Positions 3,680-39,723 of a stretch of DNA of 41,748 nt are shown one piece after another. Each line of letters begins with the position of its first letter. The first letter of the stretch is position 1. This DNA comes from Conexibacter sp. (GTDB lineage Bacteria; Actinomycetota; Thermoleophilia; Solirubrobacterales; 70-9), in NCBI GenBank assembly GCA_018263295.1, contig JADFCZ010000046.1, positions 1 to 41,748 of the forward strand, given 5' to 3'. The position numbers were made by a program, and so were the translations under genes. Under the pieces are notes generated by a model. It was given only the letters and a program-made list of their open reading frames with translations. It was not told where the DNA came from and did no database searches.

Positions 3680-3687
3680 GCGAAGCC

Positions 3688-4218: not shown

Positions 4219-4219
4219 C

Positions 4220-22995: not shown

Positions 22996-24096
22996 ATGAC
23001 GAGGATTCTTCAGGTCTTCCGACCGCGGACCGGCGGAACGTTCGGGCACGTCCGGGTGCTGTCGTCGAAGCTGGCCGAACGCGGGCACGAGGTGGCGGTC
23101 TGCGGGCCGCCCGGGGAGGGGGGCGACTTCGCGGTGCGGCATTTCGCCGCCGCGATCCCTCGCAGCCCGGCCCCGGCCGGCACGTTCGCCGCCGTGCGCG
23201 AAGTGGGACGCGCCTACCGGACCTTCCGGCCCGACGTCATCCATGCTCACGGCGCTCAGGCCGGCGTCGTCGCGAGGCTGGCGCGAGCAGCCCTGCCGGG
23301 GGTTCCGCTCGTCCACACCCCCCACCGCTACGCGTTCGACGACGGCGGCGGACCGACTCCGGTGCGTGCCGCCTACAGGGCCACCGAACGGGCTCTGATG
23401 CCGCTGACCAGCAGGGTCCTGTGCGTGTGCGAGTGGGAGCGGCGCCTCGCCGTCGACCTCGGGGCCGGCGATCGGGCCTGCGTGGTCCACAACGGCATCG
23501 ACCCGCTCGAGCCGCAGCCGCTCGAACCGCGGCTGGAGCGGTTCACCTCTGGGGGGCCGCTGATCGTGGCCGTCTCCGAGCTCTTCGCGAGGAAGGGCGT
23601 GCCGGTCCTGCTCGAGGCGATGGCGATGGTCCTCGTCGCCCGGCCGGACGCTCGACTGATCGTTGCCGGCGACGGGCCGGATCGAGCCGACGCCGAGGCG
23701 GCGCGCGATCGCCTCGGCGTCGCGAGCCGGGTTCTGCTTGCCGGCCACGTCGAGGCGGTGCCCGGATTGCTGACGGCAGCCGACGTCTTCGTGAATCCGG
23801 CCCTCGCCGAGTCGTTCCCCTACGGGATCCTCGAGGCGATGTCGCTGAGGTGTCCCTGCGTGGTCACCGCCGCGGGGGGGTCAGCCGAGGCGATCGTCGA
23901 CGGCAGCAGCGGCCGCGTCGTACCACCGGCCGATCCCGCGGCCCTCGCCGCGGCGATCCTGGAGCTGCTCGGCGACCCGCGGAGGGCCGGCGCCTACGGG
24001 GAGGAGGCCGCGCGGCGGGTCCGCGAGCGCTTCACGCTGACCAGCATGCTGGACGGCACCGAACGCGTCTACGAGGGCCTGCTGAGCGCCGGGTGA
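22996..24096 (+). CDS. GT4 family glycosyltransferase
   Basis: This 366-residue GT-B glycosyltransferase of family 4 works at the inner face of the membrane. The N-terminal lobe has PRTGGTFGHVRVLSSKLAERGHEV and DVIHAHGAQAG. The C-terminal lobe has the retaining-enzyme E-x7-E element in ESFPYGILEAMS, with ARKGVPVLLEAM and VAGDGPDR before it. Sugar donor and acceptor cannot be read. It is 8 bp downstream of argD, probably co-transcribed, and marks the change from housekeeping to surface-polysaccharide genes. Confidence 0.9.
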   Translation: MTRILQVFRPRTGGTFGHVRVLSSKLAERGHEVAVCGPPGEGGDFAVRHFAAAIPRSPAPAGTFAAVREVGRAYRTFRPDVIHAHGAQAGVVARLARAALPGVPLVHTPHRYAFDDGGGPTPVRAAYRATERALMPLTSRVLCVCEWERRLAVDLGAGDRACVVHNGIDPLEPQPLEPRLERFTSGGPLIVAVSELFARKGVPVLLEAMAMVLVARPDARLIVAGDGPDRADAEAARDRLGVASRVLLAGHVEAVPGLLTAADVFVNPALAESFPYGILEAMSLRCPCVVTAAGGSAEAIVDGSSGRVVPPADPAALAAAILELLGDPRRAGAYGEEAARRVRERFTLTSMLDGTERVYEGLLSAG

Positions 24097-24577: not shown

Positions 24578-25468
24578 GTGGACGGATCGGTCGCACGGAT
24601 GCGGCAGGCGGTCGACATCGCCCCCGGCGTGACGATGCCTCTGCTCGGCCTCGGAGTGTTCAGGATCCCACCCGGCCGGGAGACCGAAGGGGCGGTGGGA
24701 GCCGCGCTCGAGGCGGGCTACCGGCACATCGACACCGCTCAGGCCTACGGCAACGAGGAATCGGTCGGGCGCGCCATCCGCGCCTCCGGGCTGCCGCGTG
24801 CCGAGGTCTTCGTCACGACCAAGTTCGACGCCGCCCGTTCCGATCCGGTGCTCGAGCTGGAGCGGAGTCTGGAGAGGCTCGGTGCTGACCACGTCGATCT
24901 CTACCTCGTCCACACCCCGCGCGGGGGGCCGCGTCGCGCGTGGTCCGGGATGGAGGCGGCCTTCGAGCGCGGCATGACCCGGAGCATCGGAGTCAGCAAC
25001 TTCGGAGTCGCCGACCTCGAGCGGCTGCTGCCCGTCGCCGGTGTCAAGCCCGCGGTCGACCAGGTCCAGTTCAGCCCCTTCGCCTACCGGCGGCAGCTGC
25101 TGGAGGAATGTCGGTCGCAGGGGATCGAGGTGACCGCGTACAGCCCGCTGACGCACGGCGAGGAGCTCGACGACCCGACCGTCGCCGAGGTTGCGAAGCG
25201 CCACGGCCGGACGGCGGCGCAGGTCCTGCTCCGGTGGGCGATCGAGCGAGCGGTCGCGGTGATCCCCAAGTCCGCTCACCGGGAGCGGATCGTCGAGAAT
25301 GCCGCGGTTTTCGATTTCGAGCTGACTGCGGACGACATCGTCCGCCTCGACGCGCTCGATCGCAGCGGCGCCGCCGCGATCGCCGTCGAGAGGCCGTGGT
25401 GGACCCTCCGCGGCCGGCTGCGCCGCGTGAGCAGGACCGCCCGTCGCCGGCTGAGCGCCGGTCAGTGA
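24578..25468 (+). CDS. Aldo/keto reductase
   Basis: This 296-residue NADPH-dependent (beta-alpha)8-barrel carbonyl reductase is of the YvgN/2,5-diketogluconate reductase type. The tetrad is visible as Asp and Tyr in RHIDTAQAYGNEE, Lys in VTTKFD and His in LYLVHTP. IGVSNFGVADLERL, YSPLTHG and VIPKSAHRERI (cofactor phosphate binding) follow in the expected order. The tail ends in Arg-rich sequence. The start may be GTG 24578 or ATG 24599; both keep the whole domain. The 3' end overlaps the convergent GNAT gene by 7 bp. Confidence 0.9.
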   Translation: MDGSVARMRQAVDIAPGVTMPLLGLGVFRIPPGRETEGAVGAALEAGYRHIDTAQAYGNEESVGRAIRASGLPRAEVFVTTKFDAARSDPVLELERSLERLGADHVDLYLVHTPRGGPRRAWSGMEAAFERGMTRSIGVSNFGVADLERLLPVAGVKPAVDQVQFSPFAYRRQLLEECRSQGIEVTAYSPLTHGEELDDPTVAEVAKRHGRTAAQVLLRWAIERAVAVIPKSAHRERIVENAAVFDFELTADDIVRLDALDRSGAAAIAVERPWWTLRGRLRRVSRTARRRLSAGQ

Positions 25469-26517
25469 AACCGCGACAGCTCGCCGTCGAGCCGCGAGAG
25501 GACCGATGCGGAGGTGGACAGCGCCGCGGCGAGTTCGGCGTCGCCGGCCTTGATCACGGGCTGCCACGCGAGCCCAATCGCGGCGAGCCGCTCGCGTAGC
25601 GGCCGCTCCAGGTGCGGCTCGGCCCGCCCGCTCAGCACGGCGCTGCCCGAGGCGGACGCATAGCCGACCAACTCGCCGAAGACCGCATCTACCACACGCT
25701 CGCCGGCGGCGAGATGGAGGAGCCGGCTGACGCCGCCCGGACGCAGCAGGCACGCGTACCAGCCGACCGGCTTGTCGCCGCGGTCGACGATGCGGACAGC
25801 GAGGCGGCCGCCGAGCGCCTCGATCCTGCGGAACGTCGCATCGAGCTGCGGCTGGTCCCAGTCGACCGCGACCCTGAGCCCGCGCGAGATCGCCGGAAGA
25901 GCTTCGACGACGGAGGCGGCGTCGGCGTCGCGACCGTGGAATCCGGGCTCGGGCCGGGGGGGAGGGCGGCCGCTGATCCGCTCGCCGGCGGCGTGGGCGG
26001 GAAGCGCTCCGACCGGCATCAGCTCCCGCCCCACCTCCCGCCCTCGTGCTCGAGCAGCTATCAGGTCGCCGATCCAGCGCGCCGGGCGGAGGACGAGCAT
26101 GAAGTCCGCCGCGCGCGAGTAGTCGACCTGGCCGCCGAGCGCGCGCCAGGCGCGAACCACGAAATCCGTCGCCGAATCGGACCAGCTGACGTCCTGTGGG
26201 CCCTTGAGCTGCCGGGCGAGCAGCATTGCCCCGGACGCGCCGCGCCGATGCCCTTCGGAGACGACCAGGTCGCTCAGGCAGACGCCTCGAATCGGCCGCC
26301 CGTCGAAGAGCATCCTCCGGACCTGGGCGCGAACGAAGCCCACCACCTCGTCGTCCTCGACGGCGACCAGCGACGGAAGCTCCTCGTCGCTCCAGCCGTC
26401 GCCGAGGGTCGCATCCGCCAACTCGTCCTCGGTCAGCGGGAACCCCGGGAGGTTGGCCCGGAGCAGTCCCATCACGGCGGGAAGATCCGCCCGTCGCAAT
26501 GCTCGGATCTGCCCCAT
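25462..26517 (-). CDS. GNAT-fold acyltransferase
   Basis: This 351-residue protein has an N-terminal GNAT domain (about 1-150) with the acetyl-CoA motif A region DLVVSEGHRRGASGAMLLARQL. The C-terminal half (about 200-340) looks like a second, degenerate acyltransferase fold (VRIVDRGDKPVGWYACLL), as in tandem GNAT or FemAB-like proteins. The gene is divergent from the NadE-like operon. Only 28 bp separate the two start codons, and each has its own -10 box at 7 nt, so the genes are probably expressed together. It may acylate a product of that operon, possibly from the ACP; this is inference. Confidence 0.72.
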   Translation of the reverse strand: MGQIRALRRADLPAVMGLLRANLPGFPLTEDELADATLGDGWSDEELPSLVAVEDDEVVGFVRAQVRRMLFDGRPIRGVCLSDLVVSEGHRRGASGAMLLARQLKGPQDVSWSDSATDFVVRAWRALGGQVDYSRAADFMLVLRPARWIGDLIAARARGREVGRELMPVGALPAHAAGERISGRPPPRPEPGFHGRDADAASVVEALPAISRGLRVAVDWDQPQLDATFRRIEALGGRLAVRIVDRGDKPVGWYACLLRPGGVSRLLHLAAGERVVDAVFGELVGYASASGSAVLSGRAEPHLERPLRERLAAIGLAWQPVIKAGDAELAAALSTSASVLSRLDGELSRFH

Positions 26518-26524
26518 CGGGCGC

Positions 26525-26530
26525 AATCTA
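26525..26530 (-). promoter_or_regulatory. -10 box (TAGATT) of GNAT gene
   Basis: On the minus strand TAGATT is followed by 7 nt and then ATG 26517. It lies 2 bp from the -10 box of the divergent operon. Confidence 0.55.
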
Positions 26531-26532
26531 CC

Positions 26533-26538
26533 TAGACT
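26533..26538 (+). promoter_or_regulatory. -10 box (TAGACT) of NadE-like/AsnB/ACP/ligase operon
   Basis: TAGACT is followed by 7 nt and then ATG 26546, mirroring the divergent TAGATT box. There is no Shine-Dalgarno. Confidence 0.55.
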
Positions 26539-26545
26539 GACGGCC

Positions 26546-27502
26546 ATGAGTGGACCCCTGGACGGCTTCGACGCGGCCGCCTGCATCGACCGGCTGGCCG
26601 AGCAGACGAGCCGGGCGATCCGTGGCCTGGGCCGCCGCGGCGCCGTCGTCGCGACCTCGGGAGGAATCGACTCCAGCGTCGCCGCCGGGATCGCCGTCCG
26701 CGCGCTGGGCGCCGGGAAGGTGCTCCTCCTGCGGCTGCCGGAGCGGGATGTCGGCGACTCCTCGTCCCATCTCGCCGCCGAGCTGGCGGAGTCGCTCGGC
26801 GCCCGCAGCGTCGAGCAGCCGATCACCGATGCGCTCGAGGGTCTCGGCTGCTACAGCCAGCGCGACGAGGCGATCAGGGAGGTCTTTCCTGACTACCGCC
26901 CGGACTGGAAGCACAAGTTGGTCCGCTCCGCGCCCTCGGCCTCGATCACGGTCTTCTCGCTCGTCGTCGAGCGGCCGGACGGCACCCGCGAGCAGCGGCG
27001 GATGCCCCCCGGCGCGTACCTGACGCTGCTGGCGGCGACCAACATGAAGCAGCGGGTCCGGAAGCTGTGCGAGTACACGTGGGCCGACCGGCTCTCCTAC
27101 GCGGTGATCGGCACGCCGAACCTGCTCGAGTACGACCAGGGGTTCTTCGTCAAGGGCGGCGACGGACTTGCCGACGTGAAGCCGATCGCCGGCCTCTACA
27201 AGGGTCAGGTCTACGCCGTGGCGAGGGAGCTCGGGCTGCCGGAGTCGATCGCGAGCCGCGCCCCGACCACCGAGACCTTCTCGTTGCCGCAGAGCCAGGA
27301 GGAGTTCTACTTCGGCTACTCCTACGAGCGGATGGACGAACTGATGTGGGGCCACGCCCACGGCGTCGAGCCGGCGGAGCTCGCCCCCCGGGTCGGGCTC
27401 AGCGCCGACGAGGTCGGAGTCGCCTACGCCGAGATCGATCGGCGCCGTACCGCGACCGCCTATCTGCACGCTCCCGCGGTGTTGTTCGAGCCGGAGACCT
27501 GA
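26546..27502 (+). CDS. NAD synthase-family (NadE-like) ATP-dependent amidating enzyme
   Basis: This 318-residue N-type ATP pyrophosphatase resembles ammonia-dependent NAD synthase. The ATP P-loop is SGGIDS (residues 38-43). NMKQRVRKLCEYTWADRLSYAVIGT and PNLLEYDQGFFVKGGDGLADVKPI (read in parts, about 166-214) match the NAD-binding and P2 regions. Against a normal NadE it has an extra stretch of about 40-50 residues (about 111-160). It lacks the nitrilase glutaminase domain usual in actinobacterial NadE. Its place in an operon with an amidotransferase, ACP and ligase suggests a paralogue that amidates another adenylated carboxylate, perhaps fed ammonia by the AsnB-like neighbour. True NAD synthesis remains possible. 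Confidence 0.78.
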   Translation: MSGPLDGFDAAACIDRLAEQTSRAIRGLGRRGAVVATSGGIDSSVAAGIAVRALGAGKVLLLRLPERDVGDSSSHLAAELAESLGARSVEQPITDALEGLGCYSQRDEAIREVFPDYRPDWKHKLVRSAPSASITVFSLVVERPDGTREQRRMPPGAYLTLLAATNMKQRVRKLCEYTWADRLSYAVIGTPNLLEYDQGFFVKGGDGLADVKPIAGLYKGQVYAVARELGLPESIASRAPTTETFSLPQSQEEFYFGYSYERMDELMWGHAHGVEPAELAPRVGLSADEVGVAYAEIDRRRTATAYLHAPAVLFEPET

Positions 27503-27503
27503 C

Positions 27504-29468
27504 GTGTGCGGCATCGCGGGGATCGTCCGCCCCGATCCGGGGGATCCGGTCGACGAGCAGGCGCTGCTGCGCATGGCCAGGTCGATCCGACATCGCGGTC
27601 CGGACGGCTTCGGGCTTCTGATCGACCCGGGCGCCGGCCTGGTTTCGACCCGTCTGTCGATCGTGGATCTCGAGCACGGTTGGCAGCCGCTCGTCGACGA
27701 TCGCTCCGGCAGCGTCCTGGTCTACAACGGTGAGGTCTACAACCATCCCGAGCTGCGGGCATGGATGCGCACGCGCGGCGTCGAGTTCAGGACGCGAAGC
27801 GACACGGAGGTCGTCCATGCGCTCCTCGAACTCGAGGGCCCGGAGGGCCTCGGGCGCCTGAACGGGCAGTTCGCCCTCGCCTGGTGGCAGCCGCGGGCTC
27901 GTCGTCTGACCCTGGTCCGGGACCGGTTCGGGGTGCGCCCGTTGCACTGGTCGTGGCGCGACGACGGCGCACTGGTCTTCGGCTCGGAGGCGAAGGCGCT
28001 GTTCGCCTCCGGCGAGGTCTCCGCGGCGATCGACATGGCGGGCATCGACCAGGCGTTCACGCTCTGGGCACCGCAGTCGCCGCAGACGGCGTTCGCCGGG
28101 GTCGAGCAGCTCGAGCCCGGTGGGCTGCTGGTCTGGGAGCGCGGCGAGATCGTCGAGCGCCGGCGCTGGTGGCGGGCCGGACCGGAGCAGCCGGGCGCTG
28201 ACGCGGAGCTCGAGCCGACCCTGCGAGACAGCGTCGCCATGCGACTGCGGGCGGACGTACCGGTCGGGGCCTACCTGTCCGGCGGCCTCGACTCGAGTCT
28301 GATCAGCGCCCTGGCTCAGGTCGAGAAGGAGGGCGAACTGCGGACTTTCTCGGTCGCGTTCGACGACCCGGCATACGACGAGCGCGCCGAACAGGAACTG
28401 GTCGCCTCGGCGCTGGGCACCAGCCACCACGTGGTCGTCGCCGGAGCCGCGGAGATCGGGGACGCGTTCCCGGAGGTGATTCGCCACGCTGAGGTCCCCC
28501 TGGTCCGCACCGCCCCGGTGCCGCTCTACCTGCTGGCCCGGGAGGTCAACGAGCACGACCTCAAGGTCGTGGTGACCGGCGAGGGGGCCGACGAGCTCTT
28601 CTGGGGCTACGACCTCTTCAAGGAGGTCGCGATCCGCGACATGCACCGCGACGACCCCGACCGGGCCATGGAGCTGCTCGACCGCCTCTACCCTCACCTC
28701 GGCGCGAGCTCGCGACGGGGCCCTGGTTGGACCCGCTTCCTGCTCGAGATCGACGACGACGATCCGCTCGCCTCGCACCTGACCAGGGTCCGCTCGACGG
28801 AGTCCGTCCGGGCCTTCTACCGAGACGAGGTCCGCGCCGAGTTGAGCGTGGACGCCGCACTCGAACCGGTCCGCGACGAACTGCCCTCCGGCTTCGCCGG
28901 ATGGGATCCGCTCGAGCGCGCCGCCTGGCTCGAAGTCACCACCCTGCTCGAGCCGTACCTGCTGGCCGCGCAGGGCGATCGCGTGGCGATGGCCCACGGG
29001 GTCGAGGGCCGCTACCCGTTCCTCGATCATCGTGTCTACGCTTGCTCGGTCGGGCTCGGCGGGGAGGAGAAGCTGAACGACGACGAGGACAAGATCGCCC
29101 TTCGCCGGCTCGCCGACGAGCTCTTGCCGCCCTCCATCGTCGGTCGGCGCAAGCAGCCCTACAGGGCACCCGAGGTGACACCGTTCTTCTCCGCGTCGTC
29201 ACCGGCGTGGGTGGAGGAGATGCTCTCGACGTCGAGCCTCGAATCGGTCGGCCTCTGGGATCATCGCCGCGTGGAGGGCCTCCTGCGAAGGTGTCGCGAG
29301 GGCCGGGCGACCGGCGTGCGCGAGGGGATGGCGCTGATCGGGATTCTCTCGACCCAGCTCTGGCACGAAGCCTTCATCGCAACTTCCGGCCCCGACCCGG
29401 CCGAGACAGCCGCTCCAGCGGTAAGAATCGACCGCACGGTCGACCAAACATTGAGCGAGGTTCCATGA
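27504..29468 (+). CDS. Asparagine synthase-like glutamine amidotransferase
   Basis: This 654-residue AsnB-family enzyme has both domains. The class II glutaminase begins with the nucleophile Cys2 (MCGIAGIV), with RHRGPDG at 30-36, LVYNGEVYNH at 72-81 and SDTEVV. The synthetase domain has the pyrophosphatase loop SGGLDSS at 259-265, TFSVAFDDPAYDE and GEGADELFWGYDLF. It is about 100 residues longer than Escherichia coli AsnB, mostly near the C-terminus. AsnB-like proteins in surface-polymer loci, including those linked to exosortase A, amidate sugars or acyl acids rather than Asp. GTG 27504 follows the NadE-like stop by one base; the stop overlaps the ACP start. Confidence 0.88.
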   Translation: MCGIAGIVRPDPGDPVDEQALLRMARSIRHRGPDGFGLLIDPGAGLVSTRLSIVDLEHGWQPLVDDRSGSVLVYNGEVYNHPELRAWMRTRGVEFRTRSDTEVVHALLELEGPEGLGRLNGQFALAWWQPRARRLTLVRDRFGVRPLHWSWRDDGALVFGSEAKALFASGEVSAAIDMAGIDQAFTLWAPQSPQTAFAGVEQLEPGGLLVWERGEIVERRRWWRAGPEQPGADAELEPTLRDSVAMRLRADVPVGAYLSGGLDSSLISALAQVEKEGELRTFSVAFDDPAYDERAEQELVASALGTSHHVVVAGAAEIGDAFPEVIRHAEVPLVRTAPVPLYLLAREVNEHDLKVVVTGEGADELFWGYDLFKEVAIRDMHRDDPDRAMELLDRLYPHLGASSRRGPGWTRFLLEIDDDDPLASHLTRVRSTESVRAFYRDEVRAELSVDAALEPVRDELPSGFAGWDPLERAAWLEVTTLLEPYLLAAQGDRVAMAHGVEGRYPFLDHRVYACSVGLGGEEKLNDDEDKIALRRLADELLPPSIVGRRKQPYRAPEVTPFFSASSPAWVEEMLSTSSLESVGLWDHRRVEGLLRRCREGRATGVREGMALIGILSTQLWHEAFIATSGPDPAETAAPAVRIDRTVDQTLSEVP

Positions 29469-29737
29469 GTGAAACAGTCGGTGGCGAGGACGTCCGCAAG
29501 GAGATGCGGGTCTTCATCGAGGACAACTTCCTTTATCTGGATCCGGACGCCGACCTCGCGGACGACCAGGACCTGCTCGCTGCCGGGATAGTCGACTCCC
29601 TGGGGTTCGTCGAGATCGTCGAGGAGGTCCAGGCGCGCTACGCGATCAACGTGCAGGACGTGGAGATCACGGAGGAGAACTTCGGATCCGTGGACGCCAT
29701 CGCGCGATACGTCGAGCGGAAGCGGGCCGAGCCCTGA
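29465..29737 (+). CDS. Acyl carrier protein
   Basis: This 90-residue acidic four-helix carrier protein has Ser45 in GIVDSLGFVEIV as the phosphopantetheine site; DSL is the usual core. It starts in ATGA overlap with the AsnB-like gene and its TGA stop overlaps the ligase frame as CTGA. It is not beside fatty-acid synthase genes, so it is a dedicated carrier that should hold the acid activated by the adjacent AMP-forming ligase. It needs a phosphopantetheinyl transferase encoded elsewhere. Confidence 0.9.
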   Translation: MSETVGGEDVRKEMRVFIEDNFLYLDPDADLADDQDLLAAGIVDSLGFVEIVEEVQARYAINVQDVEITEENFGSVDAIARYVERKRAEP

Positions 29738-31236
29738 GACCGGCGGCGCTCGCCGAGGATCTACGAGCGACCGCCACGGCGCGGCCCGAGGCTGCCGCGC
29801 TGATCTCCGGGGACGACACGGTCTCCTACGCCGAGCTCGACCGCCGCGTCGACGGGGCCGCTGCCGAGTTGCGACGGCTCGGGGTCGGGCGCGGGGATCG
29901 GGTGGCGATCGTGATGTCGAACGGCACGCCGATGGTGGTCGCCGTCTACGCGGTGCTGCGTGCCGGCGCCGCGTTCTCGCCGATCAGCCCCGAGATCCTG
30001 CCCGCCAAGCTCGAACGGATCCTCGCCGACGTCGGCGCGTCGGCCGCGATCTGCGAACCGGGAAGCGCCGCCAAGCTGACCGAGGCGGCTCCGCCGCACG
30101 TCCAGGTGATCGACGGCGATGGCCTGCCCGGGAGCGCGGAGGGTGCCGGATTCCGCCCGATGGTCGGTCCGGACCTCGCAGCGGTCATCTACACCTCCGG
30201 CTCGACCGGCGAGCCGAAGGGCGTGACGCTGACCCACGGGAACATGTCCTTCGTCGCCGACTCGATTGCGGAGAGCATCGCCATGGACGCCTCGGACCGG
30301 GTTCTCTGCGTGCTGCCCCTGTACTTCGGCTACGGGCTCTACCAGCTTCTGACCTGCGTGCGGCTCGGCGCCACGCTGGTGCTCGAGCCGGGCTTCGGCG
30401 CCGGCGGGCGGATCGTCCAGCTGCTCGAGGAGCGCCGGATCACCGGGTTCGCCGCCGTCCCGACGATCTACCAGCTGCTGCTGTCCCTGCCGGGACTGGG
30501 CGAGCGCGGCTTCCCCGATCTGAGGTTCCTGACCAACGCCGGGGCCGGGTTGCCGACGCCGGTCGTCCGCTCGGTTCGCGAGGCGTTTCCCGACGCGCGC
30601 CTCTACCTGATGTACGGGCAGACCGAGTGCCAGAGGGTCTGCCGCCTCGACCCCGACGAGGTCGATGCCAGCCCCGACTCGGTCGGCACCGCCATCCCCG
30701 GAACCGAGGCCTGGGTCGAGGACGCGGACGGAGAGGTCGCCGCTCCCGGGATCGTCGGCGAGCTCATGGTTCGCGGCCCTCATGTCATGCAGGGCTACTG
30801 GGGCAACGAGGAGGCGACCGCACGCAAGCTCGGTCCCGGTCGCTGGCCGTGGGAGCGGGTGCTCGCGACGGGAGACCTGTTCCGTGCCGACGAGCGTGGC
30901 TACCTCTACTTCGTCGGCCGGCGCGACGACATCATCAAGTCTCGTGGGCAGAAGGTCGCACCGCGCGAGATCGAGGACGTCCTCCACGCGTTTCCGGGCG
31001 TTCGCGACGTGGCGGTCGTCGGCGTGCCCGACAAGCTCCTGGGCGAGGCCGTGCATGCCCACGTGGCGGCTGAGGCCGGGGTCGACCTCGAGGCGAAGGA
31101 GTTGCGACGCTACTGCGCGGAGCAGCTCGAGAGCCACATGGTGCCGAAGCGCGTCGTGATCCACGCCGACCTGCCGCGGATCGGTTCCGGGAAGATCGAT
31201 CGAAGGGCGCTCGCCGGCTGGACCGACGACGGCTGA
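29734..31236 (+). CDS. AMP-forming acyl-CoA/acyl-ACP ligase (ANL family)
   Basis: This adenylating enzyme of about 500 residues has the motifs YTSGSTGEPKGVTLTHG (about 151-168), MYGQTE, the hinge TGD, RRDDIIKSRGQKVAPREIE, and the catalytic Lys in GSGKIDRRAL near 487. The normal N-terminal domain, beginning about ALAEDLRATATARPEAAAL, is coded upstream of any in-frame ATG, GTG or TTG. The first available initiation codon is CTG 29734, which overlaps the ACP stop as CTGA, just like the ATGA coupling before it. TTG 29860-29870 would remove about 45 residues. It probably loads an acyl or aminoacyl group onto the ACP. Relatives occur with AsnB and ACP in exosortase-linked loci. Confidence 0.88.
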   Translation: MRPAALAEDLRATATARPEAAALISGDDTVSYAELDRRVDGAAAELRRLGVGRGDRVAIVMSNGTPMVVAVYAVLRAGAAFSPISPEILPAKLERILADVGASAAICEPGSAAKLTEAAPPHVQVIDGDGLPGSAEGAGFRPMVGPDLAAVIYTSGSTGEPKGVTLTHGNMSFVADSIAESIAMDASDRVLCVLPLYFGYGLYQLLTCVRLGATLVLEPGFGAGGRIVQLLEERRITGFAAVPTIYQLLLSLPGLGERGFPDLRFLTNAGAGLPTPVVRSVREAFPDARLYLMYGQTECQRVCRLDPDEVDASPDSVGTAIPGTEAWVEDADGEVAAPGIVGELMVRGPHVMQGYWGNEEATARKLGPGRWPWERVLATGDLFRADERGYLYFVGRRDDIIKSRGQKVAPREIEDVLHAFPGVRDVAVVGVPDKLLGEAVHAHVAAEAGVDLEAKELRRYCAEQLESHMVPKRVVIHADLPRIGSGKIDRRALAGWTDDG

Positions 31237-31320: not shown

Positions 31321-33192
31321 GTGGGATGGACCAGAGGCGCTAGGACGTGCGCCGTTGTCGTGACATCGATGATCGCCTCGGCCGGAGTCGCCGAGGGGCA
31401 CGGAACCGGGGGCCTGCAGCTGCCGGAGGCGGAGATCCGGGCCTACGAGAGCGCCGTGCTGGGCGATGAGCACGCGGCCGAGCACGCCGAGCAGCGCCGG
31501 GACGAGCGCCGGGCGATGCGCCGATGGCAGGCGATGACCTCCCGCGAGCAGCGGCTGAAGGTCGCGCGCGAGCGCGAACTGTCGAAGCGCCTGGCGCGCA
31601 GGACCGCGGCCCGAGCCCCGGCGAGTGAGATCGGGCGCTGGACCCAGGCGCCGTTCGAGCTGCCGAACTCGTTCGCAATCCACACGGTTGTCCTTCCGAC
31701 CGGCAAGCTTCTCTACTGGGGCTTCCCCGACGGGCCGCCCAACATCGGCAACGCAACGCTCTGGGACCCCTCCAAGGGCTACGGCCCGAGCGCCTTCGAG
31801 GACGTGCCGCCGCCGGTCGTCGACCCTGACGGGGACGGCCCCCAACCGCCTGGCGTGGCCCCGATCTACTGCTCGGGGCAGTCCTTCCTGCCGAACGGCG
31901 AGGTGCTGGTGACCGGCGGCAACCTCGTCTTCCCCGGCTTGTCGGACCCGGCCTATCCCGACTGGGCGGGCCTGAACCGCGCCTTCACGTTCAATCCCTG
32001 GACCGAGCGCTGGACCGAACAGCCGCAGATGAACCAGGGGCGCTGGTATCCGACCCAGGTCGAGCTGGCTGACGGTCGCACGATCACGATCGGCGGCTAC
32101 AACGACGATCCGCCGGGCAAGGTGCTGAACATGGACCTCGAGGTCTTCGAGCCGGGTGCCGCGGCGGAGAGCGTCGGCTCGTTCAGCCTCCATCCCGAGG
32201 TGACCCTTCCGACCGGGCTGCTCTACCCGCACCTGTTCACCATGCCCGATCAGCGAGTGCTGGTGGCCGGCCCGCTGCCGCGCCACGCGGCCCTGATCGA
32301 CGCTCGTGACCCCGGCGATCCGATCACCTGGACCGACCTGCCGCGGAGCATCGAGCAGCGGAACGGCGGCTCGGCCGTGCTCGAACCGGGAACGCCGCGC
32401 GGCTCCTGGAGCGCGACGATGATCGGCGGCATCGGCGGGCTGCCGGACCCGGACGGCTCTCGGCTTCCGACCGCAACGACCGAGACGATCAACGCCCGCC
32501 GTGCCGGCGACGGCTGGAAGGCGTCCAGCCCTCTCAACCTGAGCCGTTCCTACCAGAACACGGTTCTGCTGCCCGACCGGTCGATGGTGACCGTCGGGGG
32601 CGGATACGGAGAGAATGAAGAGGACGGCGTCTACAGGATCGACAGCGACGGAGCGCGGCGCCAGATCGAGCTGTTCGATCCGGAAACGTCCGAATGGCGC
32701 CTCGGCCCGGCACAGCTCGAGGACCGCGGGTATCACGCCACAGCGGTCCTGCTGCCGGACGGGCGGGTGTTCTCGGGCGGCGACAACAAGCATCCGCTCG
32801 AACCGGACGGAAGCAACAGCAATACCGACACCGCCGAGATCTACTCGCCGCCCTACCTGTTCCAGGGAAGGCGCCCGGTGATCAAGAAGGCGCCCAAGAA
32901 GGCCGGTTGGAACCAGCGAATCAAGGTTCTCACGAAGGGCAGGTCGAAGGCGACCGAGGCCGTGCTCGTCGCCCCGGGCGCGACGACCCATGGGAACGAC
33001 ATGCATCAGCGTCTGGTTCCGCTGCGCGCGAAGAAGTTGAAGAAGAAGGGCAAGCGCAAGCCGGGCCCGACCGGGCTCGAGATCGTCACCCCGCCCGGCG
33101 CCGGTGTCGCGCCTCCCGGGTACTACATGCTGTTCGTGCTCAACGGCAAGGGCGTGCCGTCGGTCGCGAAGTGGGTGCGACTCGGCAGCTGA
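31321..33192 (+). CDS. Secreted copper radical oxidase (galactose oxidase/GlxA-like)
   Basis: This 623-residue protein has a short signal-like N-terminus (about 1-26, AVVVTSMIASAGVAEG), a charged helical region (about 38-100), a seven-bladed kelch-type propeller and a C-terminal Ig-like DUF1929 domain ending GYYMLFVLNGKGVPSVAKWV. All copper and cofactor residues of galactose oxidase have counterparts: Cys184 (YCSG) for the Tyr-Cys crosslink, Tyr243 (GRWYPTQ), Tyr471 and His472 (RGYHATAV) and His557 (ATTHGND). It should oxidise a primary alcohol, probably on a sugar, to an aldehyde with release of hydrogen peroxide outside the cell. Streptomyces GlxA does this during glycan deposition. The stacking Trp of the fungal enzyme appears to be Tyr260. 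Confidence 0.87.
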   Translation: MGWTRGARTCAVVVTSMIASAGVAEGHGTGGLQLPEAEIRAYESAVLGDEHAAEHAEQRRDERRAMRRWQAMTSREQRLKVARERELSKRLARRTAARAPASEIGRWTQAPFELPNSFAIHTVVLPTGKLLYWGFPDGPPNIGNATLWDPSKGYGPSAFEDVPPPVVDPDGDGPQPPGVAPIYCSGQSFLPNGEVLVTGGNLVFPGLSDPAYPDWAGLNRAFTFNPWTERWTEQPQMNQGRWYPTQVELADGRTITIGGYNDDPPGKVLNMDLEVFEPGAAAESVGSFSLHPEVTLPTGLLYPHLFTMPDQRVLVAGPLPRHAALIDARDPGDPITWTDLPRSIEQRNGGSAVLEPGTPRGSWSATMIGGIGGLPDPDGSRLPTATTETINARRAGDGWKASSPLNLSRSYQNTVLLPDRSMVTVGGGYGENEEDGVYRIDSDGARRQIELFDPETSEWRLGPAQLEDRGYHATAVLLPDGRVFSGGDNKHPLEPDGSNSNTDTAEIYSPPYLFQGRRPVIKKAPKKAGWNQRIKVLTKGRSKATEAVLVAPGATTHGNDMHQRLVPLRAKKLKKKGKRKPGPTGLEIVTPPGAGVAPPGYYMLFVLNGKGVPSVAKWVRLGS

Positions 33193-33229: not shown

Positions 33230-35314
33230 GTGAGGAGCAGCAGCGAGACCGGCCCCGGCGAGCCGGACAGCCGGCGGTTCGCCGCGCTCACCGGTCGGCC
33301 GGAACTGATTCCCGGCCTGCTCGCGGTCGCCACGTTCCTGATCCTCGCGGCTTCGCAAGGGGGCTCCGGAGTGACCTCATGGGCTCCCGCGGGCCTCTTC
33401 ATGCTCGCGCTGACTGCTCTGGTCGCCTGGGTCTACCGTGCGCGGCTGCGCGCCTTGAGGCCCGCCACCCGCTGGGCGATCGGGCTCCTGGCGGCGTTCG
33501 TCCTCTGGAGCTACGCCTCGATCGCCTGGGCCGAGGTCGATGCGACCGCATGGGACGGGGCCAACCGCGCCCTTGTCTACCTGCTCGTGTTTGCCGCCTT
33601 CTCGATCGTCTCCTGGCGGGCCGGGTCCGCCGCCCTGGTGCTCGGCCTCTATTCCGTCGGCCTGGCGGTGATCGCAGCCATCGTGCTGATCGATGCGGCG
33701 GGGTCGACCGACGCGGCCCTGTTCCTGGTCAACGGACGGCTCGCCGAGCCGACGGGATACGCGAACGCAGTCTCAGCCCTGTTCATCGGCGGCTTCTGGC
33801 CGGCCGCCCATCTCGCCTCGCGCCGCGAGGTGTCGTGGGCGCTGCGCGGCATCCTGCTCGCCGTTGCCGGTCTCCTGATTCAGGTTGCCCTGATGCCCCA
33901 GAGCCGGGCGTCGCTGCTGGTGATGCCTGCGGCGCTGATCCTGTACCTGTTGGTGGTTCCGAACCGCCTGCGCGCCGCGATGTTCATGGCGCTGCCCCTG
34001 GCAGCCACGGCGCTGGCCGCGCCGGCGATCCTCGACGTCTTCGCGACGAACGACGAGGGTGGCGACGTCGGTGCGGCCTTCACCGGTGCAGCGGAGGCGA
34101 TTTCGGTCTCCTTCGTTGCGCTTGCGGTCGTCGGAACGCTGCTGGCGCTCGCCGATCGCCGCCTGGTCATCAGCGAGGCGTCATCGCGGACCGCAGGGCG
34201 GATCGCAGGTGTCATCGCTGCCGTGCTGGCCGTCGCGGCGCTCGCGTCCGCGGTCGTGGCGGTCGAAGATCCGATCGGATGGGTCGATGAGCGTTGGCAG
34301 GACTTCAAGGGCGACTACGACGAGGGCGGCTTCGGGTCGACTCGGTTCAGTGGCGATCTGGGAAGCGGCCGCTATGACTTCTGGAGAGTGGCGCTGAGCG
34401 ATGGCTTCGGGTCGGCGCCGCTTGCGGGTGAAGGTGCCGACAACTTCGCGGTCACCTATTTGGAGCACCGAGAAACGGGAGAGGAGCCGCTCTATCCGCA
34501 CAGCCTGCCGATGCGCCTCCTGGCCGGGACGGGCGTCGTGGGCACGCTCCTCTTCTCCGGCTTCCTCGTTGCGGCGGCAGCTTCCGTGATCCGCACGCGA
34601 GCGCGAGCGAGCGAGCCCCTGTCGCGGGCGGTTGCCGGAATCGCGCTGGCCGCCGCCGGCTACTTCTTCCTCCACGCGGGCGGCGATTGGCTGTGGACGT
34701 TCGCCGGGATCGCGATGCCCGTCATGGCCTGGCTCGGAATGGCGGGGGGCGGGATGCAGGCGGACGGGCAAGTGGGCGCGGCGTCCCGGTTCGGGCCGGC
34801 GGCGCGAGTCGGGGCGCTCGCCCTCGTGGCGGCGCTCGCCATCGTCGCCGTCGCTTCGCTGACATTTCCCTGGCTCGCCGCCCGCCTCACCGCGAGTGCG
34901 GCGGCGGACTGGCAGGCGGATCCCGAGGCCGCCTATTCCCGCCTCGACACCGCCCGCGCATTGAATCCCCTGTCGCCACGAGCCGATCTCGTCGCCGGCA
35001 CGATTGCGGTGCGAGACGGCGATGAGGAACGGGCGCGGATCGCCTTCACACGCGCCGCCGACCGCGAACCCACCAACTGGTTCGCGCTGCTCGAACAGGG
35101 CACGCTGGATATCGCCGCGGGACGCCGGGCGGAAGGTTTGGCCGCGCTGAAAAGGGCGGAAGCACTCAACCCGAACGAGTCCCTGATCGCATCGGCGTTG
35201 CGCCGGGCCCGAAGCGAGCAGCCGCTGACCAGCGCTCAGATCGACCGGGAGCTGCTCGACCGGGTCTGTGCACGGGTCGGCGCAACGCGCGATACCCGTT
35301 TTTGCAGCGAGTAA
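33230..35314 (+). CDS. O-antigen ligase/polymerase-like membrane protein with C-terminal TPRs
   Basis: This 694-residue protein has about 12-14 membrane helices (residues about 25-545), with the large outer loop of the Wzy/WaaL family at about 350-425 (RYDFWRVALSDGFGSAPLAGEGADNFAVTY in parts). This loop normally handles the lipid-linked glycan. NGRLAEPTGYANAVSALF at about 165-182 is the family's conserved Asn/Gly region. A soluble tail (about 555-665) has two to three TPR-like helix pairs (PEAAYSRLDTARALNPLSPRA, ERARIAFTRAADREPTNW). It would polymerise or ligate the surface glycan; which one is not clear. It probably starts without a leader at GTG 33230. Confidence 0.82.
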   Translation: MRSSSETGPGEPDSRRFAALTGRPELIPGLLAVATFLILAASQGGSGVTSWAPAGLFMLALTALVAWVYRARLRALRPATRWAIGLLAAFVLWSYASIAWAEVDATAWDGANRALVYLLVFAAFSIVSWRAGSAALVLGLYSVGLAVIAAIVLIDAAGSTDAALFLVNGRLAEPTGYANAVSALFIGGFWPAAHLASRREVSWALRGILLAVAGLLIQVALMPQSRASLLVMPAALILYLLVVPNRLRAAMFMALPLAATALAAPAILDVFATNDEGGDVGAAFTGAAEAISVSFVALAVVGTLLALADRRLVISEASSRTAGRIAGVIAAVLAVAALASAVVAVEDPIGWVDERWQDFKGDYDEGGFGSTRFSGDLGSGRYDFWRVALSDGFGSAPLAGEGADNFAVTYLEHRETGEEPLYPHSLPMRLLAGTGVVGTLLFSGFLVAAAASVIRTRARASEPLSRAVAGIALAAAGYFFLHAGGDWLWTFAGIAMPVMAWLGMAGGGMQADGQVGAASRFGPAARVGALALVAALAIVAVASLTFPWLAARLTASAAADWQADPEAAYSRLDTARALNPLSPRADLVAGTIAVRDGDEERARIAFTRAADREPTNWFALLEQGTLDIAAGRRAEGLAALKRAEALNPNESLIASALRRARSEQPLTSAQIDRELLDRVCARVGATRDTRFCSE

Positions 35315-35474
35315 ACCTTCCGGGTTGCCAACCTCCGGCCGATCTGTAATGATCCTCGCCTAGTTCCCCCTTGGGCGCCGACACCGTTCGTCGGATCGTC
35401 GGTCGGCCATCAGGTACTCATCACAGCACTCAGGGGGTTTGAGGCCGGTCGCTGGAAGATCAAGAGGAGTTTCC
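35315..35474 (+). promoter_or_regulatory. Promoter and long leader of LPFTG protein gene
   Basis: TGTAAT at 35345-35350 matches TATAAT in five of six bases and would start transcription about 118 nt before GTG 35475. TTGCCA at 35325-35330 is only 14 bp upstream, too close for an ideal -35. Within the leader CCGAC (35380s) can pair with any of three GTCGG repeats downstream. No known riboswitch class is recognised. Confidence 0.35.
35462..35469 (+). promoter_or_regulatory. Shine-Dalgarno (AAGAGGAG) of LPFTG protein gene
   Basis: AAGAGGAG lies 5 nt before GTG 35475, which decides the start and sets this gene apart from the leaderless majority. Confidence 0.6.
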
Positions 35475-35774
35475 GTGAAGTCGAGAATGATTCTCAGCTC
35501 GCTAGCTCTCGTTGTCGTGCTCGCTTTCGCTCCTACAGCGATGGCAAGCAACTCATCGGTTGAGACCTACGGCGGACAGGGTGGCGAAGTCGCCGGTTCC
35601 GTCTCCGGTGGCGATCCGACGGACCCGGGCGCTTCGGCGGATCCGGCCTCCAGTAGTAGCGCGTTGCCGTTCACCGGGCTCGATGTCGAGCTCTTGGCCG
35701 GTGGCGGACTCGTCCTGCTGCTTGGTGGAGTCGCGATGGCGCGGATGTCCCGCACCCGCGAGGACATCGCTTAG
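35475..35774 (+). CDS. Small LPxTG-anchored surface protein
   Basis: This 99-residue precursor has a signal peptide at 1-24 (hydrophobic core LSSLALVVVLAFAP, cut after AMA), a mature stretch of only about 40 residues rich in Gly, Ser, Asp and Pro, and a complete sortase signal: LPFTG at 64-68, a hydrophobic helix and a basic end (MARMSRTRE). A sortase would link Thr67 to the cell wall or to another acceptor. No sortase gene is in the window. The mature peptide is too short for an enzyme; an anchor point for the locus glycan or a structural peptide is possible but unproven. A 14-bp hairpin follows the gene. Confidence 0.8.
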   Translation: MKSRMILSSLALVVVLAFAPTAMASNSSVETYGGQGGEVAGSVSGGDPTDPGASADPASSSSALPFTGLDVELLAGGGLVLLLGGVAMARMSRTREDIA

Positions 35775-35842: not shown

Positions 35843-37057
35843 TCAGCGCCGGCTCCGGTCGGCGGTGAGACGTTCGAGGGCACCGGTCAGGCGTAGCGCC
35901 ACATCCTCCCTCAGGTACTCGGCGGCAAGGTCGCGAGCGCGCTCACCGAGCATTCGCCCGAGCTCGGGATCATCCCGCAGACGACGAACCGCCGCCGCCA
36001 TCGCGTCGGGGTCCTCGGGCTCCGCGATGACCGCCGCGCCCTCGGCCAGTCGGCGAGTCTCGCCGTTGGCGGCGACGACCAGCGGGCGACCCAGGGCGCA
36101 GTAGTCGAAGAGCTTCGAGGAGATCACGTCGTCGAGGGAAGCCCGCAGCGCCACCAGCAGCGCGTCTGCGGCGAGTAGGTGGTCGGCAGCGTCGTCCGGC
36201 GACATCAGCCCCTCGATGCGGACGCGGCCGGGCGGCAGTTCCGCCGCCCGTGCTTCGAGCTCCTCGCGCAGGGGCCCGTGACCGATCAACAGGAGCTGAA
36301 ACCCCTCGCCGAGCCTCTCCGCGGCCTCCATGGCGGTGTCGAGGCCGTGGTAGAGACCGAGGTTGCCGGCATACGCCCAGACGAAGAGGTTCGTCGGCAG
36401 GCCGAGCTTCGCACGGTCGGGACGACGGCGACCGCGTTCGAGCCAGGCTCGCGTCGTGCCGTTGGGCATCACGTCGATCCGCTTGCCCGCCGGCGCGTGC
36501 TCGGCGATGTGTTCTCCGAAGGGCTCGGTCACGGTCGTGATCAGATCGGCCCGTTCGTACAGCCAGCGTTCCAGGACCTCGGCCGCCTTGACCGCCCGCT
36601 TCGAGTTCAGCTCTCCGAGAACGACCGCCGCCTTCGGCCATAGGTCGCGGACGTCGAGGACCCAGGGCACGCGGTGGCGGATCGCGAGGAGGGCCCCGGC
36701 AAGGCCGACGGTGAGGGGGGGCGAGCTTGCGAGGATCACGTCGGGCCTCCTCCGCAGGGAGCCGACGGCCGTGGCCATCGCCGCGAACGAGGCGTAGAGC
36801 TCGAGCCGGCTGCGCATGTTCTTGACCGGTGCGACCCGGACCCATACGTAGTCGACGCTGAGCTGCGTCGTTCGCTGCCTGACCAGGGGCCGCCCCCGGA
36901 ACGCCGGCTCGATCACGCCCTCGGGATGGTTGGGGACCGCGCAGATGACCTCGACCTCGTGGCCGCCGGCGCACAGGGCTTCCACGAATGGCTCTATCCT
37001 GAATCGGGCAGCCGTCACCTCCGGGGTGAAGTGCTGGCTTACGATCAGGACGCGCAT
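35843..37057 (-). CDS. GT4 glycosyltransferase (WbuB-like)
   Basis: This 404-residue GT-B enzyme opens with RVLIVSQHFTPEVTAARFR, VPNHPEGVIEPAFRGRP and VLDVRDLWPKAAVVLGEL, the signature of WbuB-type transferases that add N-acetylated sugars to the lipid carrier. The C-terminal lobe has YAGNLGLYHGLDTAMEAAERL and SSKLFDYCALGRPLVVAANGE for nucleotide-sugar binding. ATG 37057 is chosen because family similarity begins there; there is no clear Shine-Dalgarno or TANNNT box. It is divergent from the sugar-1-phosphate transferase, with 136 bp between starts that must hold both promoters. Confidence 0.9.
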   Translation of the reverse strand: MRVLIVSQHFTPEVTAARFRIEPFVEALCAGGHEVEVICAVPNHPEGVIEPAFRGRPLVRQRTTQLSVDYVWVRVAPVKNMRSRLELYASFAAMATAVGSLRRRPDVILASSPPLTVGLAGALLAIRHRVPWVLDVRDLWPKAAVVLGELNSKRAVKAAEVLERWLYERADLITTVTEPFGEHIAEHAPAGKRIDVMPNGTTRAWLERGRRRPDRAKLGLPTNLFVWAYAGNLGLYHGLDTAMEAAERLGEGFQLLLIGHGPLREELEARAAELPPGRVRIEGLMSPDDAADHLLAADALLVALRASLDDVISSKLFDYCALGRPLVVAANGETRRLAEGAAVIAEPEDPDAMAAAVRRLRDDPELGRMLGERARDLAAEYLREDVALRLTGALERLTADRSRR

Positions 37058-37193
37058 GGGGGAAGTTTCGCCAACCGAGAGCCAGAACCTTGCAAGTCCC
37101 GCGCGTGGAGCCGGGAGCGAGGAAACGACGGCAGAGGACCGCGGTCTTTCCATTGTTGAGGAACGGGCAGCAGCCGCCGATAGGACGAATGAC
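37058..37193. promoter_or_regulatory. Divergent promoter region between GT4 and priming transferase genes
   Basis: This 136-bp spacer separates two start codons facing away from each other. TAGGAC (37181-37186) lies 7 nt before ATG 37194. On the minus strand GAAACT lies 6 nt before ATG 37057. Both are weak -10 candidates. Confidence 0.3.
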
Positions 37194-38753: not shown

Positions 38754-38783
38754 CCGGCCTGCCGGTCTGATCGCCGGCGATCA
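38752..38783. terminator. Paired palindromes between convergent genes
   Basis: GACCGG/CCGGTC (38752-38757 and 38762-38767, 4-nt loop) is followed at once by the perfect 16-bp palindrome TGATCGCCGGCGATCA (38768-38783), which contains the stop codon of the opposing gene. There is no T-run on either strand, so termination here is plausible but unproven. Confidence 0.4.
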
Positions 38784-39707
38784 GTAGCCGAAGGCCTGCC
38801 GGTAACGGCGCGTCAGGCGTCGAACCGTTTCCGCTTCCTCCGGGGTGAGGATCGAACGCCATCGCTCGTCGAGGGTGATCTCGCTCGAGCTCGTGAGGCG
38901 CATCCGGTTGCCGATGACGTGATGTTCGCCGGAAAGGAACTCGTAGGGGCCCGGCAGTGGTGTCAGGCCGACCATCGCGCAGATGCGCGCGAACTCGCGC
39001 TCGGGATCCCTGCAGAGGTCCTCGTAGCGGACGCGCAGTCGGCGCTCGGCCGGCAGCATCGCGAACAGGTCCTCGGCCTGGGAGCCGCGGCGGTTCCAGT
39101 AGCGAGACGCGTTGGCGATCCGCCCGCCGCGGGCGGCGCGCCGGTTCTTCGAGGCCCGGGACTTCTTCGAGGCGACGAACCCGAGCGAGTCGCGCACGAG
39201 GTGGACGACGTGCGGCGTGAGGTCGGTTGTGCGCTCGAGCAACCGCACCCTGCTCACGTCCTTCGATGCATCGGCGAAGACGGGCTTGCCGGTCACGGTT
39301 CGGGCGCTGTCCACGAGGGCCTGGTTGCGCAGGGCAACCGTGCGGACGTGCGAGCCGAGGGAGGACCCCCGTTCGGCGAGGGTCGACCGCAGTTCATCAC
39401 CGCGCTCACCCGACAGCAATCGTCGGCCCACGCGGCTGCGCGGCCGAAAGCTCGTCTGCCAGTGCGAGGGATCGAATCGGAAGCCGCGAGCGGCCATCTC
39501 GCCGCCGACCGCCGTCCAGAACGGGCACTCGGCGAGCGTCGCGCCGCACGAGCAGGGGTACTGCCCGGGGTCCGGCCAGTTGCTGAAGTTCGGGTCGGAC
39601 TCGCCGACGCAGACGATCTCGGGGTGCAGGTTGAGCAGGAAGGAGAGCAGGGTCGAACCGGTGAACGAGGTGCCGACGATGTAGAGGAACCGCTCCGGGG
39701 GTGGCAT
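38781..39707 (-). CDS. Sulfotransferase family protein
   Basis: This 308-residue PAPS-dependent sulfotransferase-like protein has the 5'-phosphosulfate loop VGTSFTGSTLLSFLL at residues 11-25 and the 3'-phosphate site VVHLVRDSLGFVASK near 170-185. The C-terminal part RLRVRYEDLCRDPEREFARICAMVGL is the usual end domain. A Cys-rich patch (PCSCGATLAECPFW) near 60-70 is of unknown role. ATG 39707 lies 16 nt after the stop of the upstream sulfotransferase and puts the loop at the usual place; a longer frame to 39782 would overlap that gene. It probably sulfates a sugar of the surface glycan. Confidence 0.85.
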   Translation of the reverse strand: MPPPERFLYIVGTSFTGSTLLSFLLNLHPEIVCVGESDPNFSNWPDPGQYPCSCGATLAECPFWTAVGGEMAARGFRFDPSHWQTSFRPRSRVGRRLLSGERGDELRSTLAERGSSLGSHVRTVALRNQALVDSARTVTGKPVFADASKDVSRVRLLERTTDLTPHVVHLVRDSLGFVASKKSRASKNRRAARGGRIANASRYWNRRGSQAEDLFAMLPAERRLRVRYEDLCRDPEREFARICAMVGLTPLPGPYEFLSGEHHVIGNRMRLTSSSEITLDERWRSILTPEEAETVRRLTRRYRQAFGY

Positions 39708-39723
39708 GGGCGGACGGCGAGGA

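Follow-up and report, generated by a model that had tools for sequence, protein, structure and literature searches.

The DNA analysed here (41,748 nucleotides from Conexibacter sp., hereafter the window) contains an operon that encodes a NadE-like enzyme, an AsnB-like amidotransferase, a carrier protein and an AMP-forming ligase, and the grouping of these four genes is a conserved unit rather than the product of chance. In 38 of 45 loci, sampled as those with a NadE-like gene and at least 6 kb of flanking sequence on each side, the AsnB, carrier and ligase genes all lie within 6 kb of the NadE-like gene, and almost none lie beyond that distance; the records that contain this module are named for about a dozen phyla, and the bacteria that carry it include Luteimonas, Nocardioides and Caldimonas. 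Literature searches for the gene combination found no description of it as one unit, and the four-gene set apparently has never been described as such; papers on floc formation and on Rubrivivax report AsnB-type genes in EPS clusters, the other module members being unnamed there. Judging from motifs, predicted folds and neighbouring genes, the operon may encode a carrier-based pathway whose product is an acyl group with a carboxamide, destined for a surface glycan, a reading in which our confidence falls a little short of even.

Gene organization

The genes and the intergenic region on which the argument is built are the following:

22996-24096, plus strand: GT4 glycosyltransferase (Pfam)
25462-26517, minus strand: tandem-GNAT acyltransferase, 351 amino acids, divergent from the operon
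26518-26545, no strand: intergenic region shared by the GNAT and NadE-like genes, with two -10-like hexamers in the sequence
26546-27502, plus strand: NadE-like N-type ATP pyrophosphatase (NCBIfam NF002048), ATG start, 318 amino acids
27504-29468, plus strand: AsnB-like glutamine-dependent amidotransferase, GTG start, 654 amino acids
29465-29737, plus strand: acyl/peptidyl carrier protein (Pfam PP-binding), ATG start, 90 amino acids
29734-31236, plus strand: VinN-like AMP-forming ligase, CTG start, with Lys487 and Arg301 (equivalent to VinN R331)
31321-33192, plus strand: GlxA-like radical copper (galactose) oxidase (Pfam and NCBIfam)
33230-35314, plus strand: Wzy/O-antigen-ligase-like membrane protein with TPR (Pfam Wzy_C, below cut-off)
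36930-38753, plus strand: polyprenyl glycosylphosphotransferase (TIGR03025, 353 bits against a cut-off of 296; start codon approximate)

The close joining of the four genes, claimed in a preliminary description of this DNA, was confirmed: the NadE-like and AsnB-like genes are separated by 1 nt, and 4-nt overlaps join the AsnB-like gene to the carrier gene (ATGA) and the carrier gene to the ligase gene (CTGA). The ligase start was placed at the CTG at 29734 because no ATG, GTG or TTG is present at the true N terminus of the ligase; CTGA is kept at this junction within the genus (L005, L102 and L103), and the majority of the remoter relatives examined have GTGA or ATGA there. The GNAT gene does share the promoter region, as had been stated, its start codon lying 28 nt from that of the divergent NadE-like gene. 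Each start codon is preceded, at a distance of 7 nt, by a -10-like hexamer (TAGACT at 26533-26538 on the plus strand, TAGATT at 26530-26525 on the minus strand), a spacing which suggests that the two divergent transcripts may be leaderless, and AATCTAC(C/T)TAGACT is kept ahead of the NadE-like gene in L005 and L102. The key residues had been reported as intact, and all are present: SGGIDS at positions 38-43 of the NadE-like protein, Cys2 and SGGLDSS in the AsnB-like protein, Ser45 in the carrier and Lys487 in the ligase (counted from the CTG). In alignments, each is invariant or nearly so among relatives.

Distribution and genomic setting

A conserved neighbourhood beyond this genome, on which the preliminary description had made its model depend, is thus provided by the complete loci in about a dozen phyla. 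The co-occurrence of five genes, for which it had suggested a search, holds for the four-gene core, whereas the GNAT gene is recurrent but not universal. A relative of the NadE-like protein is encoded in at least 571 stretches confirmed by scan, which span hundreds of genomes; within the class, the module is carried by 10 of 249 genomes (the window genome and nine classmates), and in three of the 45 loci (L042, L060 and L069) the NadE-like gene has no nearby partner. The NadE-like member had been regarded as unusual to this actinobacterium, but it belongs to the module as a fixed component, genomes with an exosortase included, and the recurrence of the module across phyla rules out a peculiarity of this genome. 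Since in the sampled loci a protein labelled as NAD(+) synthase nearly always has these three partners as neighbours, many of these annotations are probably wrong.

The GNAT is a recurrent fifth member of the module in many lineages. The window protein, which matches Pfam Acetyltransf_1, aligns in a profile-profile comparison, over 288 columns (97%), with a GNAT family of about 350 amino acids that adjoins the module in other phyla. Its AlphaFold model (pLDDT 88.9) contains two GNAT folds in one chain, and the top full-length Foldseek matches are N-myristoyltransferases (TM about 0.5, E about 1e-14). Because the gene is found in only 15 of the 45 loci, transfer may elsewhere fall to other enzymes or be optional.

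The glycan setting was borne out by the glycosyltransferases, the glycosylphosphotransferase and the GlxA-like oxidase in the window, and genes for capsule/EPS export, glycosyltransferases and polysaccharide deacetylases surround the module in many unrelated phyla. The WbpA/B/E/D sugar-synthesis genes did not turn up in the Pfam-scanned stretches of the window. No genes for uronic-acid synthesis were recognized close to the module, which speaks against the proposed pathway.

The enzymes of the module

The NadE-like protein scores 405 bits against NF002048 (PRK00876; curated cut-off 313) and is a member of this subfamily; Methanosarcina acetivorans likewise matches NF002048. Its predicted structure (pLDDT 93.8) has NadE and NMN synthetase as the closest folds, an alignment of 66 family members contains 44 invariant residues, and a family-specific insert carries the invariant Lys124. 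The protein is predicted to be an ammonia-dependent amidase acting on some carboxylate, and, as the NAD synthase core is largely kept, it may act on something closer to a pyridine dinucleotide than has been assumed.

The AsnB-like protein belongs to the asparagine synthase fold family, with the Cys2 glutaminase and the SGGxDS synthetase motif. Its scores against TIGR03108, the XrtA-associated amidotransferase (340 bits, cut-off 817), and TIGR03104, the N-acetylglutaminylglutamine-amide amidotransferase (304 bits, cut-off 570), lie below the cut-offs, and its best solved match is the hydroxyamidotransferase 7ylz. Mutant analysis shows that an AsnB-type protein of P. gingivalis makes a uronamide, and its relatives from exosortase loci match TIGR03108 (PMC7468200).

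PltL-type PCPs and DltC are the solved chains closest to the carrier; among 72 relatives, at least 97% retain D44 and the phosphopantetheine serine S45. The ligase falls below the cut-off of the XrtA-associated TIGR03098 (400 bits against 592); the best solved match of a relative's ligase is VinN (281 bits), with TNxAAALP and MYGxTECKR in common. The roles of the VinN residues follow two publications, one of them a review. The carboxylate-binding R331 is invariant in 44 of 44 ligases (Arg301 in the window), and the amine-binding D230 and K330 are replaced by Gly and Gln in the window, Asp being present in 26 and Lys in 32 of the 44. Position 230 is coupled to position 299: Asp occurs with T299 in 26 of 26 ligases and any other residue with A299 in 18 of 18. 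In a phylogeny from which these columns were left out, the Asp label needs five changes, at least four of which are forced by supported branches, and the window ligase carries the switched form. These pocket residues predict a VinN-like ligase that takes a dicarboxylic acid. In most relatives, the acid would probably be L-aspartate or a close analogue; in the window lineage the amine-binding Asp is absent, and thus a diacid without that amine is more likely.

A gene for a PrmC-like methyltransferase is found in 19 of 26 loci with the Asp-type ligase, in none of 17 with the other type and in none of 28 class-II loci. The association of this gene with the Asp-type ligase is strong by plain count (Fisher 9e-7) but not significant when relatedness is allowed for, since the independent changes are few, with about 1.6 of four pairs agreeing and none disagreeing. 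All 12 tested genomes that bear the PrmC-like module gene contain a second, higher-scoring PrmC. PrmC-like proteins form a family that methylates amides.

Proposed pathway and alternatives

In the proposed order of steps, the ligase would adenylate one carboxyl group of a small dicarboxylic acid, the other being held by Arg301, and load the acid onto Ser45 of the carrier. The AsnB-like enzyme would free ammonia from glutamine and amidate a free carboxylate, the simplest candidate being that of the acid on the carrier. A different carboxylate, possibly that of a nucleotide-linked uronic acid, would be turned into a second amide by the NadE-like enzyme at the expense of ATP, and the roles of these two enzymes could be swapped. 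The tandem GNAT would then take the acyl group off the carrier and attach it to an amino group; the acceptor is probably a sugar within the glycan that the adjacent glycosyltransferases build. It is possible, although on the doubtful side, that this represents an undescribed pathway spanning phyla, in which carboxamide acyl groups of an asparagine-like or a malonamide/succinamide-like kind, N-methylated in certain lineages, are built on a dedicated carrier for surface glycans, the substrate class of the ligase has switched repeatedly via the coupled two-residue change, and a NAD-synthase fold has been recruited for glycan or acyl amidation. If the model is true, it provides testable chemistry for a module frequently met in loci for biofilms and capsules and helps to account for the AsnB, ligase and carrier genes in exosortase loci, and the two-residue code of the ligase predicts substrates.

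Carriers, stand-alone ligases, AsnB-like enzymes and GNATs are common in natural-product clusters, and the module might make a soluble product (an osmolyte, or a siderophore-like or antibiotic-like compound) with the polysaccharide genes as mere neighbours. The N-acetylglutaminylglutamine-amide pathway likewise uses an AsnB-type enzyme, albeit with a TIGR03104 match below cut-off here, and in the distant classmates L099-L101 the module alone matches the window while the flanks do not. Nevertheless, this is unlikely: polysaccharide genes surround the module in many unrelated phyla, and no further type of biosynthetic core gene was observed at its side with comparable frequency. It is quite unlikely that the AsnB-like and NadE-like enzymes are amide ligases joining an acid to an amine, yielding a pseudo-dipeptide or an amide-linked lipid; AsnB-fold proteins do include cyclases and the hydroxyamidotransferase 7ylz, and the NadE-like insert with Lys124 would fit such a role, but Cys2 of AsnB, which is invariant or almost so, is required only for glutamine-derived nitrogen.

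The synthesis of an amino-acyl linking sugar for exosortase- or sortase-cleaved proteins, on the pattern of the Wbp/Vim pathway in type IX secretion, appears distinctly improbable. Amino-acylated sugars have been proposed for exosortases, with AsnB-type and FemAB-type genes noted (PMC7468200), FemAB/Acetyltransf_6-like genes adjoin the module in L102 and L007, and, of 47 genomes that carry the module outside the class, 23 have an exosortase. However, none was found in the other 24, and PF09721 had no match in the window genome or its nine module-bearing classmates (0 of 10), so that dependence on an exosortase is rejected for the window's lineage. Highly improbable is a housekeeping origin, in which the NadE-like protein is the NAD synthase and the AsnB-like protein the asparagine synthetase of the cell, located here by chance. 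The curated names (NF002048, NAD(+) synthase; TIGR01536, asparagine synthase) favour it, and no second AsnB besides that of the module was detected in this genome (90% complete) or in two congeners. However, the NadE-like protein is not the organism's only NAD synthase, which the preliminary description had named as fatal to its model: a separate canonical nitrilase-type NAD synthase is encoded in the same genome, and a separate one also in all nine module-bearing classmates (10 of 10 in total). Moreover, the module is rare in the class, its grouping is kept across phyla, and several genomes of the same family (G059, G180, G186, G194 and G238) have no AsnB-type protein above trace matches. The separate NAD synthases and the AsnB-less family members lead us to reject housekeeping roles as a general account.

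Comparison with known systems

The proposed glycan-modifying pathway shares features with several characterized systems. TIGR03098 and TIGR03108 rank first or second among the NCBIfam models that match the ligase and AsnB, and an EPS setting is common to the module and XrtA systems, whereas the scores are far under the cut-offs and the window genome has no detected exosortase. The Wbp/Vim linking-sugar pathway of Porphyromonas combines AsnB-type amidation of a uronic acid with N-acylation of a sugar amine by a GNAT/FemAB-like enzyme, but its account names no carrier, ligase or NadE-like enzyme (PMC7468200). In fold and catalytic core, the NadE-like protein corresponds to NH3-dependent NAD synthetase and to the Francisella NMN synthetase (3fiu); it differs from them by an additional three-stranded insert (about residues 100-155), invariant residues of its own and constant operon partners.

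VinN/VinL of vicenistatin biosynthesis and AfcQ represent stand-alone aspartate-type ligases paired with a carrier, and have the same ligase pocket motif, the arginine for the free carboxylate and a stand-alone carrier. VinN, a beta-amino-acid ligase that activates aspartate-type diacids, works with a decarboxylase and feeds a polyketide; in the module, amide-forming enzymes take the place of the decarboxylase, and the window ligase lacks the amine-binding Asp. Dlt and AlmEFG aminoacylate cell surfaces, transferring unmodified D-Ala or Gly without an amidation step. Their acyltransferase folds differ from that of the GNAT, but both combine a ligase, a carrier and an acyltransferase to modify a surface polymer, as is proposed here.

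Gene organization and translation starts

The four genes of the module form an operon in the window, and the gene coordinates bear out the junctions proposed in the preliminary description: the first two genes are 1 nt apart, and each of the next two junctions is an overlap of 4 nt:

25462-26517, minus strand, GNAT gene, divergent from the operon
26546-27502, plus strand, NadE-like gene, first gene of the four-gene operon
27504-29468, plus strand, AsnB-like gene, second gene
29465-29737, plus strand, carrier protein gene, third gene
29734-31236, plus strand, AMP-forming ligase gene, fourth gene

The start codons of the GNAT and the NadE-like gene are separated by 28 nt (26518-26545), which contain two symmetric, divergent -10-like hexamers, TAGACT (plus strand) and TAGATT (minus strand), each 7 nt 5' of its start codon. 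This spacing suggests leaderless transcripts from two promoters within 28 nt; congeners share the motif that precedes the NadE-like gene. The true start of the ligase gene is not an ATG, GTG or TTG; its start codon is the CTG at 29734, inside the overlap CTGA with the carrier stop codon (29734-29737). CTGA recurs in the congeneric loci L005, L102 and L103; of the remoter relatives inspected, most read GTGA or ATGA at this spot.

Conservation of the module

The sample comprised 80 loci with relatives of the NadE-like protein, taken from at least 571 confirmed stretches, and in addition nine genomes of the class. In 45 loci the sequence extends 6 kb or more to either side of the NadE-like gene. 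Among these, AsnB was present within 6 kb in 41, the ligase in 40, the carrier in 40 and all three in 38, counts that do not speak for remoter members, because the sample was chosen by likeness to the window protein. Past 6 kb, partner counts drop to 0-1 per kb. Thus, a conserved neighbourhood does exist beyond this genome, with the NadE-like gene as a core member throughout the sample. The module is a real, strongly conserved unit, for which no published description was found in the literature searched. The records are named for Actinomycetota, Pseudomonadota, Myxococcota, Acidobacteria, Planctomycetota, Bacteroidota, Chloroflexota, Gemmatimonadota, Verrucomicrobiota, Ignavibacteriota, Nitrospiraceae and others. 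Within the class of the window, 10 of 249 genomes carry the module, a scattered distribution of the kind that an accessory and transferable function should show.

The key residues named in the preliminary description were all found and are invariant or nearly so in relatives: SGGIDS of the NadE-like protein (part of 44 residues invariant across 66 aligned sequences), Cys2 and SGGLDSS of the AsnB-like protein, Ser45 in the DSL motif of the carrier, and Lys487 of the ligase. No sign of decay was seen in the module genes.

It had been considered that the NadE-like gene might encode the only NAD synthase of the organism. This is not the case, as a complete nitrilase-type NAD synthase is encoded on another contig of the same genome, and a separate NAD synthase is present in 9/9 other class genomes carrying the module. 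The control genome of the archaeon Methanosarcina acetivorans has a NadE-like protein above the cut-off of NF002048, the family of the NadE-like protein.

Predicted substrate of the ligase

Two ligase classes accompany the module, and the window ligase belongs to class I. The top solved match of a class I relative is VinN, with TNxAAALP and MYGxTECKR motifs in common. VinN activates 3-methylaspartate or aspartate; in its pocket the amine is held by D230, with K330 and R331 as further key residues (PMC11253843). In AfcQ, a VinN-type enzyme that activates L-Asp, the Arg equivalent to R331 was modelled as holding the alpha-carboxylate (PMC12186527). R331 is invariant among 44 class I ligases. Asp occupies position 230 in 26 of them (D-type), all with Thr at 299, and the other 18, including the window ligase, have Gly, Ser, Thr or Asn at 230 and invariably Ala at 299 (non-D). 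On a class I tree built without the columns of pocket residues 230/299, this switch needs five changes, at least four of them on supported branches. The simplest reading of the pocket would be that the substrate has alternated several times between an acid of the aspartate type and a diacid that lacks the amine, and the ligase is best read as a predicted VinN-like diacid ligase.

Predicted amide formation

The AsnB-like protein retains its glutaminase and should obtain ammonia from glutamine. AsnB-type proteins amidate uronic acids, as does PGN_1234 of P. gingivalis (PMC7468200). In oxytetracycline, malonyl units are amidated by the AsnB-type OxyD. The NadE-like protein shares its fold and core with the ammonia-dependent NAD and NMN synthetases and has, in addition, a family-specific insert (~100-155) of three predicted strands that carries the invariant Lys124.

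A PrmC/HemK-like amide methyltransferase adjoins the module in L016, L023, L026, L031-L033, L044, L045, L080 and other sampled loci. Such a protein, mostly with an NPPY motif, is found near the D-type ligase in 19/26 loci, and in 0/17 non-D and 0/28 class II loci, an association that involves few independent changes and is not significant in a tree-aware test. In 12/12 genomes tested, a second, separate PrmC scores higher than the module-side one. As PrmC methylates an amide nitrogen, the presence of the gene near D-type ligases fits an amide product.

Surface-glycan setting and the GNAT

The window also encodes GT4 glycosyltransferases, a polyprenyl glycosylphosphotransferase, a Wzy-like protein and a GlxA-like radical copper oxidase. 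Near the glycosylphosphotransferase lie two adjacent sulfotransferase-family genes, and the glycan may therefore be sulfated:

38781-39782 and 39724-40611, minus strand, sulfotransferase-family genes

At 35439-35774 lies a gene for a small, apparently secreted protein that bears a sorting motif of the LPFTG type; an exosortase was not detected in the genome. In other genomes, the module lies amid polysaccharide export, chain-length, deacetylase and glycosyltransferase genes. An exosortase was found in 23/47 module genomes outside the class and in 0/10 inside it; the module is therefore not in itself an accessory of exosortases.

The GNAT gene is near 15 of the 45 well-flanked loci. Within the class, GNAT and NadE-like gene are direct neighbours in the window genome as well as in L005/L103, L007, L099 and L101; in L102, of the same genus, a gene that is FemAB-like by sequence (3395-4525) lies between the two. 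A similar Acetyltransf_6 gene (L007:7700-8830) adjoins the GNAT of L007. The GNATs of the module fall into two sequence families, which profile comparison aligns over 288 columns with 97% probability. The model of the window GNAT, which is of good confidence (pLDDT 88.9), predicts a tandem GNAT with N-myristoyltransferases as top solved matches (TM ~0.5), and we read the protein as a predicted acyltransferase.

Proposed function

The preliminary outline, in which the ligase loads an acid onto the carrier, the AsnB-like and NadE-like enzymes amidate or condense it and the GNAT transfers it to a surface sugar, appears right in form; what has changed is that its ligase can now be given a probable type of substrate, a diacid. 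It is quite possible, though somewhat short of probable, that the module builds an acyl group with a carboxamide on the carrier and then hands it to a surface glycan. The decoration of surfaces with acyl groups by way of a carrier is known; new here would be that amide-forming enzymes take part in it, among them one with a NAD-synthase fold recruited to this use.
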